Below are positions 19,767 through 24,302 of a stretch of 35,937 nt of DNA, in pieces. A program made the translations under genes and the position numbers. The stretch is from positions 1-35,937 of the forward strand of contig JAGLZW010000034.1 of assembly GCA_023131225.1 (NCBI GenBank), read 5' to 3'. Position 1 is the stretch's first letter. Every line of letters begins with the position of its first letter. The notes beneath the pieces are model-generated. The model searched no databases. It had not been told where the DNA came from and saw only the letters and a list, made by a program, of their open reading frames with translations. Source of the stretch: Candidatus Bathyarchaeota archaeon (GTDB lineage Archaea > Thermoproteota > Bathyarchaeia > Bathyarchaeales > SOJC01).

Positions 19767-22700
19767 GTGAGAAAATTAGCTTCAGCGGTTATTCTGGCAT
19801 TGCTTTTGGTTAGCACACTAGCACTAGCATTTAACATTCAACCAGCTGAGGCAGAATCTAAAGCTCAAACTGTGGATAACACTGTATCAGCAGGCTTTTC
19901 AGAAATACAAGAAATTGTGACCGAAATGAATCCAACGAAAACCTGCCGTAATTCAATAACCCAGTTGTCTAAATCAGCAACCAAATCTTTTTTCAAAAAC
20001 GAATTGCATGCACAATCGACGGGTATATTTCCACTGCCTTTTGAGGAGTGCGATAAGTGGTATTTTGGCAAAGAAGTAAAGTGGGGTGATTTTGCTTATG
20101 TTGATGATGATTCTGCAGAGCTCGTAATAGGACTTAACGACCTACGGCCAAGGAGTTACTCCGAGATCGATGATTTAATTGTAAGCAGTGGTGGAGAACT
20201 TGTCAACACAATTTCAATAGATGGCAAAGTAACTGCCATTGTAGCTGATATGCCTTATGAAGTTATGCCTATTTTTGTATCAGAAGTTCGGATGGCAAAG
20301 TTGTCGAGGTATATCGAGCCTAACGTGAGGTTCGAGGTTGATCTTGTTCCAAATGATCTTGGTTGGTTGAAGCAATGGGGGCCAGTCAAGATAGAGGCAG
20401 ATAAAGCTTGGGACACGCAAACTGGCAATCCTTCGGTTCTTGTGGCAGTAATTGATACAGGTATTGACTGGAATCACCCTGATTTGGCTGCTAATTACGT
20501 TGCCTTAGGATACGATTGGGTGAACAATGACCCAGATCCCATGGACGACGTAGGACATGGTACTCATTGCGCTGGAATAATTGCTGCTGTACTCAACAAC
20601 AAAATAGGTATAGCAGGATTAGCTCAAATTCAAATTATGGCTGAGAAAGGTCTGGGACCTAGAGGAGGACGATCAGACGAGCTCGCCAAAGCCATTATTC
20701 ATGCAGTAGATCAAGGAGCAAAAATTCTCAGTTGTAGTTGGGGTAGTGGTGTGAAAAGCAATGTTGTGCGCGAGGCTCTGGAATACGCTTATGACCACAG
20801 TGTATTGGTGATTGGATCAGCTGGAAACAACGCTGCAAGCATGGAGCGCTATCCCGCTGCTTACGACGAAGTTGTAGCAGTTACTGCAACCGACGAATTT
20901 GACGATCCAGCTGAGTTTACCAACTTTGGGGACTGGGTTGAAGTTGCAGCGCCTGGCGTTTACATATACTCGACGATTTGGGACGATTCATATGCACATA
21001 TGAGCGGTACATCGATGTCAGCCCCACATGTTTCTGGTGTTGCTGCTTTGATTTGGAGCCAGTTTCCAAGCATGTCACGAGATCAAGTGTACGCTCAACT
21101 GCGTTTCACCGTGGACGACTTGGGCTCGTCTGGGTTTGACGAGTATTATGGGTATGGGAGAGTCAACGCACGGAAGGCTGTAGAGCAAACTCCATCTGAT
21201 CATGATGTCTTTGTTTTGAGATTGAAGACGCCTTCCTATATGAGACTTGACCGTCCAGCAGCTATCGATGCTGCTATACTTAACATGGGAACAAAAGACG
21301 AAGGCGACATAATAGTACAACTGTTGGTTAATGGCAGCTTAGTTGACTCAAAAACCATTGGCTTCTTGGTAAGTGGTGCATCTACTTCTGTGAACTACTC
21401 GTGGACACCAACGATTGAAGGGGCATATAATATCACAGTTCACGTGGTGCCTGTAATTGGCGAAACTATCATTAATAATAACGCCTTATCCACACAAAAA
21501 AGCGTCAAAATATCTCAACTCATCAGGGTTCCAGAGGATTATGGTACAATACAAGGTGCAATAGATGTTGCAAAGGCAGGAGACACCATTTCCGTGGCTT
21601 CTGGAACATATTATGAAAACATATGGATAAATGAGGAAGACTTAATGCTTGTTGGAGAAAATATGAATAGTACCATTATTCAGGGAGAAGTTGTTGTGGC
21701 TGCAGACAATGTTAACGTCAATGGCTTCACAATTCAGAATGCTTACTTTGGCATAGCAGTTTATGGTTCTAGAGATAGCATAATCAACAATACAAGAACC
21801 TTAAACAACGAAATTGGAATATACATTCTTTATTCCGCCAATATTACCCTTGTGAACAATTACATGGCTGGCAACAGCAACAACTTGGACGTCGATGGCT
21901 ATTCACTTAGCGATTTTATTCATAACGTTGATGCTTCTAATTTCGTTAATGGAAAGCCAGTATATTATTGGATTGATGAACATGACAAGCAGGTTCCTCC
22001 TGACGCGGGTTACGTAGCCGCAGTGAACTGTACAAAAATCGTGATTAAGGATTTAAATCTGACAGATAACGGTGAAGGCGTGTTACTCGTTTGCACGAAT
22101 GAGTCTGTTATAGAGAATATAAATGCATCAGACAATTATGATGGCGTGTATCTAGCATATTCTGTCAACAATACTGTGGGTCGCTGCTTAGTAACAAGCA
22201 ACTATAATGGTATTTACTTGTATGAATCTATAGGTAACAATGTCAGCCATAATCTAGTGATCGATAATGAGAAAGGCATATACTCATATTATTCAAGTTA
22301 CAACAGAATTAACTTCAATGAGTTGCTGAACAAAGATGTCGGTCTCCTTTTGGACAAATCGAGCAATACCACGGTTAACAACAACAGAATATTAAACAGC
22401 ACAGACGGCATTTACTTAAAAAAATCTAGCTGTAACATCCTTAGAAACAATAACATGACAAATAACGAATACAACTTTAGGGTTACGGGTAGTTGTCTCC
22501 TGCATTTTTCTCAAGACATCGACAATTCCAACACAGTTGATGGCAAGCCAATTTATTACTGGTTGAATCAAAAAAATAAACAAATTCCAGTTGATGCAGG
22601 ATATGTAGCAGTCGTAAACTCCACAAACATTGCTGTAAGAGACCTGAACCTAACAAACAATGCACACGGTGTACTCTTTGCATTTACTGCCGAATCCCTC

Positions 22701-24302
22701 ATAGAAAATGTGAATACTTCAAAAAATACGTATGGAATCTACCTGTACAATTCCTTCAACAACGCTGTAGTGGGCAACACAGTAACCTCAAAGAGTAAAC
22801 GTGGCATTCAACTGATTGGTTCCAACAGTAACACCATTAGCAACAACCTAATTACACGCAATTACATTGGCATTGGTCTATGGTTATCCGCTGAAAATAA
22901 TACGATTAATAATAATGCAATATCTAACGGTACTTTGGGGGGTGTTGGAATTTACCTGAGCCATTCTATCAGCAATGCTATCGTCAACAACACCGTAACA
23001 AACAATGAACATGGCATTACGCTGTACCAATCAAATAGTAGTACTCTTCTGAAAAACATAATTTCAGACAACGAACAGGGTGGTGTCTTCTTATTTTATT
23101 CCAGTGGTAATGTTCTCAGAGAGAATAACATGAGTGGCAACGAGTACAATTTCGGAGTTGATGGATATTTCCTCTCGCACTTTGTTCAAGACATTGACAC
23201 TTCAAATACTGTAGATGGAAAGTCTATTCACTACTTGGTGAACCAACATGATCAAACGATTCCAACCACTGCTGGATATGTAGCTGCCATAAATTCCACA
23301 AGCATAACTATAAGAAACTTAGACACAGAAAACAACCTGCAGGGAGTATTACTCGCTTACACAACAAACTCCACAATAATGGATGTGACAACCTCCTGTA
23401 ACCTCAACGGTATTTACCTATGGTATTCTGAGAATAACACGATAAATGGAAACAACGTTACAAACAACGAAGAGGACGGTATTGGTCTACACTATTCCAA
23501 TGGCAATACTCTCAGTGGTAATACACTAGAAGACAACTTGATTGGCATAGATATCTACACTGCATCGCACAAGAATACAATTTGCAATAACACAGTATTG
23601 AAAAACGTCGGCGGCATCATGTTATATCATTCTGACGATAATATCATTAGCGAAAACAACGTTACAGGTGGTATCGAAGCACCAAATGGTTTAATAGGCA
23701 TATCATTAACCGCATCTGAAAGCAACATATTAAGCCAAAATACTGTATCTGTCAATCAATTTGTTATTGGTGCAGGAATCCTTTTAGAGTTGTCTTCTAC
23801 AAATAATACCATTGTTCGGAATACACTATCGGAAAACATGGTTGGCATCTGGATGCGCTATTCTGACGATAGCACAGTGTACCACAACAATTTCATCGAC
23901 AATTCAAGGCAAGTAATGAGTTTCAACTCAATTAACATTTGGGATAATGGTTATCCTTCAGGTGGAAGCCACTGGAGCGACTACAATGGAACAGACTTGT
24001 ACAGTGGGCCCTATCAGAATGAGACGGGAAGTGATGGAATAGCAGACGCACCATTCGTTATCGATGGGAACAACACAGATAACTATCCGCTCACAAAGCC
24101 TTGGATGCCTGTTACAGGCACGGGCGATTTAAACCACGATGGAAAAGTAAATATTTTCGACATAGTATTGGCAGCGTCAATCTACGGATGCAGAGAAGGA
24201 GAACCAAACTGGAACCCAGAGGCAGACCTAGCTCCGAAATACGGAGTAATAGACCTATTCGACTTAGTGACAATAGTATACCATTATGGACAAAGCTGGT
24301 AG
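19767..24302 (+). CDS. Secreted subtilisin-like protease with CARDB-like, beta-helix (NosD/PbH1) and dockerin domains
   Basis: 1511 residues from GTG 19767 (site GGGGGAAAGA). Order: signal peptide (about 1-30, MRKLASAVILALLLVSTLAL, then cleavage near AEA); propeptide region; peptidase S8 domain with Asp230 (VIDTGID), His264 (GHGTHC), oxyanion Asn354 (SAGNN) and Ser416 (GTSMSAPHVSG); a CARDB/APHP-like beta domain (about 475-585); a long right-handed beta-helix rich in Asn turns, starting PEDYGTIQGAIDVAKAGDTI and holding three 94-residue repeats; the NosD-type end (HWSDYNGTDLYSG, DNYPL); and a type I dockerin (about 1452-1511) with two calcium loops (GDLNHDGKVNIFDIV and a second ending DLVTIVYHYG). 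All catalytic residues are present. It probably acts outside the cell on proteins or polysaccharide-bound material, docking to a cohesin encoded elsewhere. Confidence 0.93.
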   Translation: MRKLASAVILALLLVSTLALAFNIQPAEAESKAQTVDNTVSAGFSEIQEIVTEMNPTKTCRNSITQLSKSATKSFFKNELHAQSTGIFPLPFEECDKWYFGKEVKWGDFAYVDDDSAELVIGLNDLRPRSYSEIDDLIVSSGGELVNTISIDGKVTAIVADMPYEVMPIFVSEVRMAKLSRYIEPNVRFEVDLVPNDLGWLKQWGPVKIEADKAWDTQTGNPSVLVAVIDTGIDWNHPDLAANYVALGYDWVNNDPDPMDDVGHGTHCAGIIAAVLNNKIGIAGLAQIQIMAEKGLGPRGGRSDELAKAIIHAVDQGAKILSCSWGSGVKSNVVREALEYAYDHSVLVIGSAGNNAASMERYPAAYDEVVAVTATDEFDDPAEFTNFGDWVEVAAPGVYIYSTIWDDSYAHMSGTSMSAPHVSGVAALIWSQFPSMSRDQVYAQLRFTVDDLGSSGFDEYYGYGRVNARKAVEQTPSDHDVFVLRLKTPSYMRLDRPAAIDAAILNMGTKDEGDIIVQLLVNGSLVDSKTIGFLVSGASTSVNYSWTPTIEGAYNITVHVVPVIGETIINNNALSTQKSVKISQLIRVPEDYGTIQGAIDVAKAGDTISVASGTYYENIWINEEDLMLVGENMNSTIIQGEVVVAADNVNVNGFTIQNAYFGIAVYGSRDSIINNTRTLNNEIGIYILYSANITLVNNYMAGNSNNLDVDGYSLSDFIHNVDASNFVNGKPVYYWIDEHDKQVPPDAGYVAAVNCTKIVIKDLNLTDNGEGVLLVCTNESVIENINASDNYDGVYLAYSVNNTVGRCLVTSNYNGIYLYESIGNNVSHNLVIDNEKGIYSYYSSYNRINFNELLNKDVGLLLDKSSNTTVNNNRILNSTDGIYLKKSSCNILRNNNMTNNEYNFRVTGSCLLHFSQDIDNSNTVDGKPIYYWLNQKNKQIPVDAGYVAVVNSTNIAVRDLNLTNNAHGVLFAFTAESLIENVNTSKNTYGIYLYNSFNNAVVGNTVTSKSKRGIQLIGSNSNTISNNLITRNYIGIGLWLSAENNTINNNAISNGTLGGVGIYLSHSISNAIVNNTVTNNEHGITLYQSNSSTLLKNIISDNEQGGVFLFYSSGNVLRENNMSGNEYNFGVDGYFLSHFVQDIDTSNTVDGKSIHYLVNQHDQTIPTTAGYVAAINSTSITIRNLDTENNLQGVLLAYTTNSTIMDVTTSCNLNGIYLWYSENNTINGNNVTNNEEDGIGLHYSNGNTLSGNTLEDNLIGIDIYTASHKNTICNNTVLKNVGGIMLYHSDDNIISENNVTGGIEAPNGLIGISLTASESNILSQNTVSVNQFVIGAGILLELSSTNNTIVRNTLSENMVGIWMRYSDDSTVYHNNFIDNSRQVMSFNSINIWDNGYPSGGSHWSDYNGTDLYSGPYQNETGSDGIADAPFVIDGNNTDNYPLTKPWMPVTGTGDLNHDGKVNIFDIVLAASIYGCREGEPNWNPEADLAPKYGVIDLFDLVTIVYHYGQSW
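21873..22154 (+). repeat. 94-residue internal repeat, copy 1
   Basis: 282 bases. Key residues: VDGYSLSDF, NGKPVYYW, DAGYVAAVN, DLNLTDN. Part of the beta-helix region; each copy interrupts runs of short beta-helix coils. Confidence 0.8.
22464..22745 (+). repeat. 94-residue internal repeat, copy 2
   Basis: 282 bases, the same length as the other copies with no gap. Key residues: VDGKPIYYW, DAGYVAVVN, DLNLTNN. It starts 591 bases after copy 1. Confidence 0.8.
23139..23420 (+). repeat. 94-residue internal repeat, copy 3
   Basis: 282 bases. The most diverged in the middle (VDGKSIHYLVNQHDQ, TAGYVAAIN, NLDTENN). It starts 675 bases after copy 2. Confidence 0.8.

Follow-up and report, generated by a model that had tools for sequence, protein, structure and literature searches.

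The exported subtilase encoded in the window (the whole 35,937-nucleotide stretch analysed here, positions 1 to 35,937 of the forward strand of contig JAGLZW010000034.1, assembly GCA_023131225.1, Candidatus Bathyarchaeota archaeon) probably plugs through its C-terminal dockerin into cohesins on the cell surface, where it would belong to a tethered, cellulosome-like assembly serving mainly protein digestion and peptide uptake. The probability of this reading, judged from the sequences, is roughly 0.62. A cell-surface or secreted assembly, as suggested in the earlier note, appears to be the best-supported interpretation, the genome encoding a scaffoldin and four cohesin proteins with predicted membrane anchors.

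Bathyarchaeia are abundant archaea of sediments, and we know of no account of how they stop released peptides from diffusing off. Isotope labelling has demonstrated that at least one of their subgroups catabolizes protein (PMC9123169). A cohesin-dockerin scaffold holding proteases and peptide binders on the membrane would, if real, explain how peptides are retained, and would mean that the cellulosome principle is used beyond polysaccharide digestion and beyond Bacteria. Given the dockerin classes, the anchored cohesins, and the orthologues of the scaffoldin described below, the role of archaeal dockerins becomes a matter of a finite, measurable binding matrix.

Domain Organization and Genomic Setting of the Protease

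The protease gene (19767-24302, forward strand) starts with a GTG codon and encodes 1511 amino acids. Reading of the translation placed a putative signal peptide at residues 1-30 (VRKLASAVILALLLVSTLALAFNIQPAEA; 19767..19856); the sole hydrophobic segment of the protein is this N-terminal one, and the hydropathy of the translation revealed no C-terminal hydrophobic segment. The following region (residues 31-200; 19857..20366) precedes the catalytic domain and may serve as a propeptide; a Pfam scan of the N-terminal region gave no family at significance. The Peptidase S8 subtilase domain extends over residues 201-476 (20367..21194) and was delimited by Pfam (Peptidase_S8, 189.8 bits against a cut-off of 21.8, residues 223-464), by its nearest solved relatives (AK.1 protease and thermitase, E 4e-64), and by motif location. 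The catalytic triad D230, H264, and S416, reported as intact in the earlier note, is all there, together with the oxyanion residue N354. Assignment to the mycosins was rejected (TIGR03921, 216 bits, below the cut-off of 278.8).

The CARDB-like domain also seen earlier corresponds to an Ig-like domain at residues 497-575 (21255..21491), scoring 38.7 bits in Pfam with a cut-off of 22.7. Behind it lies a right-handed parallel beta-helix of about residues 583-1446 (21513..24104), matching NosD (268 bits), TIGR03804 (219 bits), and Beta_helix (202 bits) and containing internal repeats of GKPVYYW, GKPIYYW, and GKSIHYL units. A long beta-helix is thus present, as the earlier note had it; its attribution to NosD did not hold in the strict sense, as the score for the copper maturation protein (TIGR04247, 200.7 bits) is below the cut-off of 300, indicating a generic beta-helix.

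The contig bears an archaeal 16S gene, as well as archaeal ribosomal protein and tRNA synthetase genes recognized by reading; the protease gene is therefore archaeal, and bacterial contamination is an unlikely source. It stands alone amid informational genes and is not part of a cohesin cluster.

The C-Terminal Dockerin

From sequence comparison and structural modelling, the C-terminal module (residues 1453-1510; 24123..24296, forward strand) is a dockerin, closest to type II. A same-genome search with the 61-residue tail returned 38 matches, chiefly at the C-termini of exported proteins; about 33 are strong, and several of these homologues exceed the Pfam Dockerin_1 cut-off. The tail of the window protease scores 16.4 bits against a cut-off of 22.9, with loop 1 only covered, because its second calcium loop is degenerate. 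Of the two calcium loops that the earlier note had singled out for modelling, loop 1 (DLNHDGKVNIFD; 24126..24161) proved canonical, with ligands at positions 1, 3, 5, 9, and 12 in the translation and alignment. Loop 2 (DLAPKYGVIDLFD; 24225..24263) has 13 residues, which is one over length, and lacks two ligands in the alignment, with A and K at ligand positions 3 and 5. The same loop-2 type recurs in the scaffoldin dockerin and in the dockerins with HCDIAEPYG.

The AlphaFold2 model of the tail (pLDDT 88; helices at 24-32 and 58-66 of the construct) showed a dockerin fold of two EF-like loop-helix units, and its best PDB matches were all dockerins. The top Foldseek matches (5k39, 4u3s, 2y3n, and 2b59) are type II dockerins at 1.2-1.6 Å with a probability of 1.00, among them 5k39, 2y3n, and 2b59 at 1.2-1.3 Å; the type I match 2ccl reached a probability of 0.14. 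The dockerin sequence profile behaved similarly, giving values from 4.5e-14 (2y3n_B) to 1e-9 with type II chains (2e-10 for 2b59) and from 5e-4 to 1e-2 with type I chains. The earlier description of a type I dockerin consequently survives as regards the dockerin, which the model and the genome homologues bear out, and gives way to type II as regards the type.

Dockerin Repertoire and Cargo

The earlier note had proposed looking for other dockerin proteins, and about 35 dockerins were found in the source genome. Three classes were distinguished by reading their alignment. The class with two good loops occurs mostly on proteins ending in CARDB-dockerin; the class of the window protease, with loop 2 of the form A(P/E)xYG, is shared by the scaffoldin, both S8 proteins, and the majority of the beta-helix proteins; the class without loop 1 is found on oligopeptide-binding proteins. 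This distribution may partly reflect paralogy among the cargo proteins.

Cargo typing covered the fetched stretches of the source genome. The dockerin-bearing proteins include a second subtilase with the S8-CARDB-beta-helix organization (contig C10), a C25 peptidase with a propeptide and its own cohesin (C44), a weak reprolysin-like match (C19), and five SBP_bac_5 oligopeptide-binding proteins, in addition to beta-helix proteins, an arylsulfotransferase-like protein, and PKD arrays. Glycosidases are nearly absent, the scanned cargo including a single GH-like protein (DUF4015/GHL10). As predicted from these sequences, the cargo mix favours protein digestion and peptide capture; given the PKD arrays, the arylsulfotransferase, and the GH-like protein, its purpose may not be purely proteolytic.

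Several loci deserve separate mention. On the scaffoldin contig, oppB, oppC, oppD, and oppF come after the gene for an oligopeptide-binding protein with a dockerin (C46:1464-9135); no Opp permease or ATPase homologue was detected in the fetched stretches surrounding the other four dockerin-bearing SBP_bac_5 paralogues. The C25 (gingipain-family) peptidase (C44:9564-12731) combines propeptide, cohesin, and dockerin in a single chain, so that copies of it could link up with one another or connect two partners. In-frame stops (TGA/TAG) or frame changes were observed in cohesin/dockerin genes at C10:75657-76076, C4:3974-4635, and C37:6439-6588, and several dockerin-only frames of 50-110 amino acids occur in the same genome. 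The interrupted genes and short frames are decayed copies or assembly errors and suggest fast turnover.

Cohesins, Scaffoldin, and Membrane Anchors

With a profile built from local cohesins, 19 cohesin domains were detected in the source genome (8 places in the Pfam Cohesin search), so that the docking idea of the earlier note was not weakened. The local cohesins in the profile, soluble and anchored together, are nearest to the solved type II cohesins.

The scaffoldin ORF (C46:17228-19156) encodes a signal peptide, three cohesins, a CARDB domain, and a dockerin. Its Pfam matches above the cut-off were Cohesin (81.7 bits over three stretches) and CARDB only, and no carbohydrate-binding module (CBM) was found in the Pfam scan of the protein. 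The scaffoldin dockerin is the best match in the source genome to the window dockerin, with 67% identity. The top structure match of the scaffoldin model was 3l8q, a type II cohesin dyad; the AlphaFold2 single-chain prediction (pTM 0.38, dockerin poorly modelled) gave no confident cohesin-dockerin contact in cis. Scaffoldin orthologues covering most of the profile are distributed over several families of the order. A contig scan with the scaffoldin sequence alone yielded zero matches, and one with a scaffoldin alignment (A2) yielded 12 loci, 11 labelled Bathyarchaeota and one labelled uncultured archaeon.

Four other cohesin proteins of the source genome, one at C1:87333-88760 and three on C15, have a C-terminal hydrophobic segment and a basic tail. 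The same ending is present in cohesins of about 225 amino acids whose genes lie directly 3' of the scaffoldin gene in four relatives; in the source genome, no cohesin frame was found in the 614 bases between the scaffoldin and the end of contig C46. The best PEF-CTERM match of the small anchored cohesins was 22.3 bits, the cut-off being 23. In the fetched loci, C-terminal membrane anchors, assigned by hydropathy, were carried by 18 of 46 cohesin-only proteins versus 1 of 69 proteins with a C-terminal dockerin.

Two unusual arrangements were also observed in the source genome. One cohesin protein (C15:23582-26548) combines two cohesins with PKD and a repeat resembling collagen (46.9 bits with Pfam Collagen), ends in a membrane segment, and is possibly a stalked anchor in an archaeon. 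Another, of 228 amino acids (C9:53818-54501), inverts the customary order, with its dockerin at the N-terminus and a membrane segment at the C-terminus, and could act as an anchor for a soluble cohesin protein.

Co-occurrence and Conservation among Relatives

Across 251 genomes of the class, both modules were found in 90, neither in 131, dockerins only in 19, and cohesins only in 11, in counts uncorrected for phylogeny. All 54 genomes with at least five dockerins also have a cohesin, again uncorrected for phylogeny, and the 19 dockerin-only genomes have one to four dockerins each, with no cohesin detected. The numbers of dockerins and cohesins were correlated over 61 genomes with a rho of 0.89, likewise uncorrected. 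One genus with many beta-helix matches to the window protein has neither dockerin nor cohesin.

A full-length orthologue of the protease was found in one of 60 relatives, a single-contig Bathyarchaeota genome (G004, C1:1665493-1669974). Its identity to the window protein is 49.5% over the N-terminal 200 residues, 70% in the S8 domain, and 40% in the dockerin, so that conservation across the whole protein is lowest there. Within one genome, protease and scaffoldin dockerins share 67% (source genome) or 54% (G004) identity. The docking modules thus go with their genome and not with the protein that carries them, a pattern to be expected if they track the local cohesins; gene conversion could also cause dockerins to cluster by genome.

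S8-CARDB homologues with a terminal dockerin occur in the source genome (two) and in four relatives (G001, G004, G013, and G021), and the S8 protein of a fifth (G017) also ends in a dockerin. In two relatives (G007 and G055), S8-CARDB homologues end in a membrane anchor, and in G019, whose genome has no dockerin or cohesin, the S8 protein is membrane-anchored. Dockerin and anchor therefore look like alternative ways for S8 proteases to stay on the cell.

Proposed Model and Alternative Explanations

In the proposed docking model, the signal peptide would export the protease, whose propeptide would then be removed, and the S8 domain, with the triad observed above, would cut extracellular protein. 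The CARDB domain and long beta-helix may form a spacer or a substrate-holding stalk. The type II-like dockerin would bind a cohesin, either of the soluble three-cohesin scaffoldin or of a membrane-anchored cohesin protein. The C25 peptidase, the reprolysin-like protein, the oligopeptide-binding proteins, and the beta-helix proteins would be held alongside through their own dockerins, and peptides freed near the membrane would be captured and handed to the OppBCDF transporter, which is encoded beside the scaffoldin. In a wider and more tentative form, to which we give clearly less than an even chance, a dedicated surface protein-digestion complex would be inherited in this order of Bathyarchaeia, with anchored cohesins, a three-cohesin scaffoldin, dockerin proteases and oligopeptide binders feeding a shared Opp transporter, and distinct dockerin classes for different cargo.

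Docking may also be real and serve adhesion or the building of a surface matrix, in which the protease would process surface proteins or mature members of the assembly, and beta-helix, PKD, and CARDB domains would bind neighbours or minerals. The abundance of these three domains in cargo and scaffold proteins and the one collagen-like stalk agree with this explanation, and passages of PMC9012536 and PMC5244752 discuss dockerin/cohesin proteins of ANME archaea as possible mediators of cell contact. We regard it as rather unlikely, however, since the five dockerin-bearing oligopeptide-binding proteins, one of them adjoining oppBCDF and the scaffoldin, point to peptide acquisition, as do the two dockerin subtilases, the propeptide-bearing C25 peptidase, and the reprolysin-like protein. 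It is very improbable that the C-terminal module, as a calcium cap or folding aid resembling a dockerin, has no cohesin to bind and that the protease is simply secreted. The degenerate loop 2, the Pfam score below the cut-off, and the 19 of 251 genomes in which one to four dockerins were detected without any cohesin would fit a cap; against it, none of the genomes with at least five dockerins is cohesin-free, membrane anchors sit on cohesins and are missing from dockerin proteins, and the scaffoldin bears the same dockerin type as the window protease.

In a variant of docking, the window dockerin would stay out of the scaffoldin; sharing its dockerin type, it would vie with the scaffoldin for a cohesin anchored in the membrane, and protease and scaffoldin would be held side by side on separate anchors. 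This variant has not quite an even chance; its likelihood overlaps that of the main model, which allows either kind of cohesin. It is favoured by the existence of anchored cohesins in the genome and by the finding that no other dockerin there matches the window dockerin as well as that of the scaffoldin (67% identity). In clostridial cellulosomes, moreover, the anchoring cohesins are bound by the type II dockerin of the scaffoldin (2b59, 3kcp). On the other hand, Bacteroides cellulosolvens integrates its enzymes by type II pairs, according to a passage of PMC4582573, and the archaeal cohesins, soluble and anchored, are jointly nearest to type II, so that specificity is unreadable from type.

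Comparison with Known Systems

In a search of the open-licence literature on dockerins and cohesins in Bathyarchaeota/Bathyarchaeia, no paper on such a system was found. The clostridial cellulosome (2b59, 3kcp, and 5k39) has in common with the present system the dockerin and cohesin folds, a multi-cohesin scaffoldin with its own dockerin, and separately anchored cohesins. It differs in that the archaeal scaffoldin lacks a CBM, glycoside hydrolase cargo is almost missing, anchoring is by transmembrane segments at the C-terminus, the window dockerin has a degenerate loop 2, and the host is an archaeon. Among the features that define a cellulosome, the multi-cohesin scaffoldin with its own dockerin was found, while a CBM on the scaffoldin and a cargo made up chiefly of plant-polysaccharide hydrolases were not. 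The assembly is cellulosome-like in logic and is not a cellulosome, because a CBM is missing from its scaffoldin and glycosidases are next to absent.

Among Archaea, passages on ANME describe numerous dockerin proteins, others in which a single dockerin accompanies several cohesins, and dockerins on OppA-type oligopeptide-binding proteins (PMC9012536, Chadwick et al. 2022; PMC5244752, a 2017 domain survey), and S-layer/dockerin proteins are mentioned for ANME-2c (PMC9012536). Many dockerins, multi-cohesin dockerin proteins, and dockerin-bearing oligopeptide binders are thus common to both. The present system belongs to another class, Bathyarchaeia, and proteases are prominent among its cargo; moreover, the scaffoldin and the Opp transporter (in relatives, also a membrane-anchored cohesin) are encoded together, in a locus absent from the ANME descriptions in the cited passages. 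Binding of dockerin and cohesin is reported as verified for Archaeoglobus fulgidus (Bayer 1999; Haimovitz 2008; as cited in PMC9012536). Both archaea have the two modules; the present system has a three-cohesin scaffoldin and about 35 dockerins.

A 2008 survey of archaeal subtilase fusions listed Subt-(Dockerin_1)2 of Halobacterium (NP_280653.1) and Subt-NosD (NP_616940.1) (PMC2605481). These share with the window protein the fusion of an archaeal subtilase to a dockerin or a NosD beta-helix; each carries one partner, whereas the window protein has both as well as CARDB, and its genome encodes a cohesin scaffold. The parts of the system are already known; what is new is the lineage, the full S8-CARDB-helix-dockerin chain, the anchored-cohesin gene adjoining the scaffoldin, and the cargo of proteases and peptide binders.
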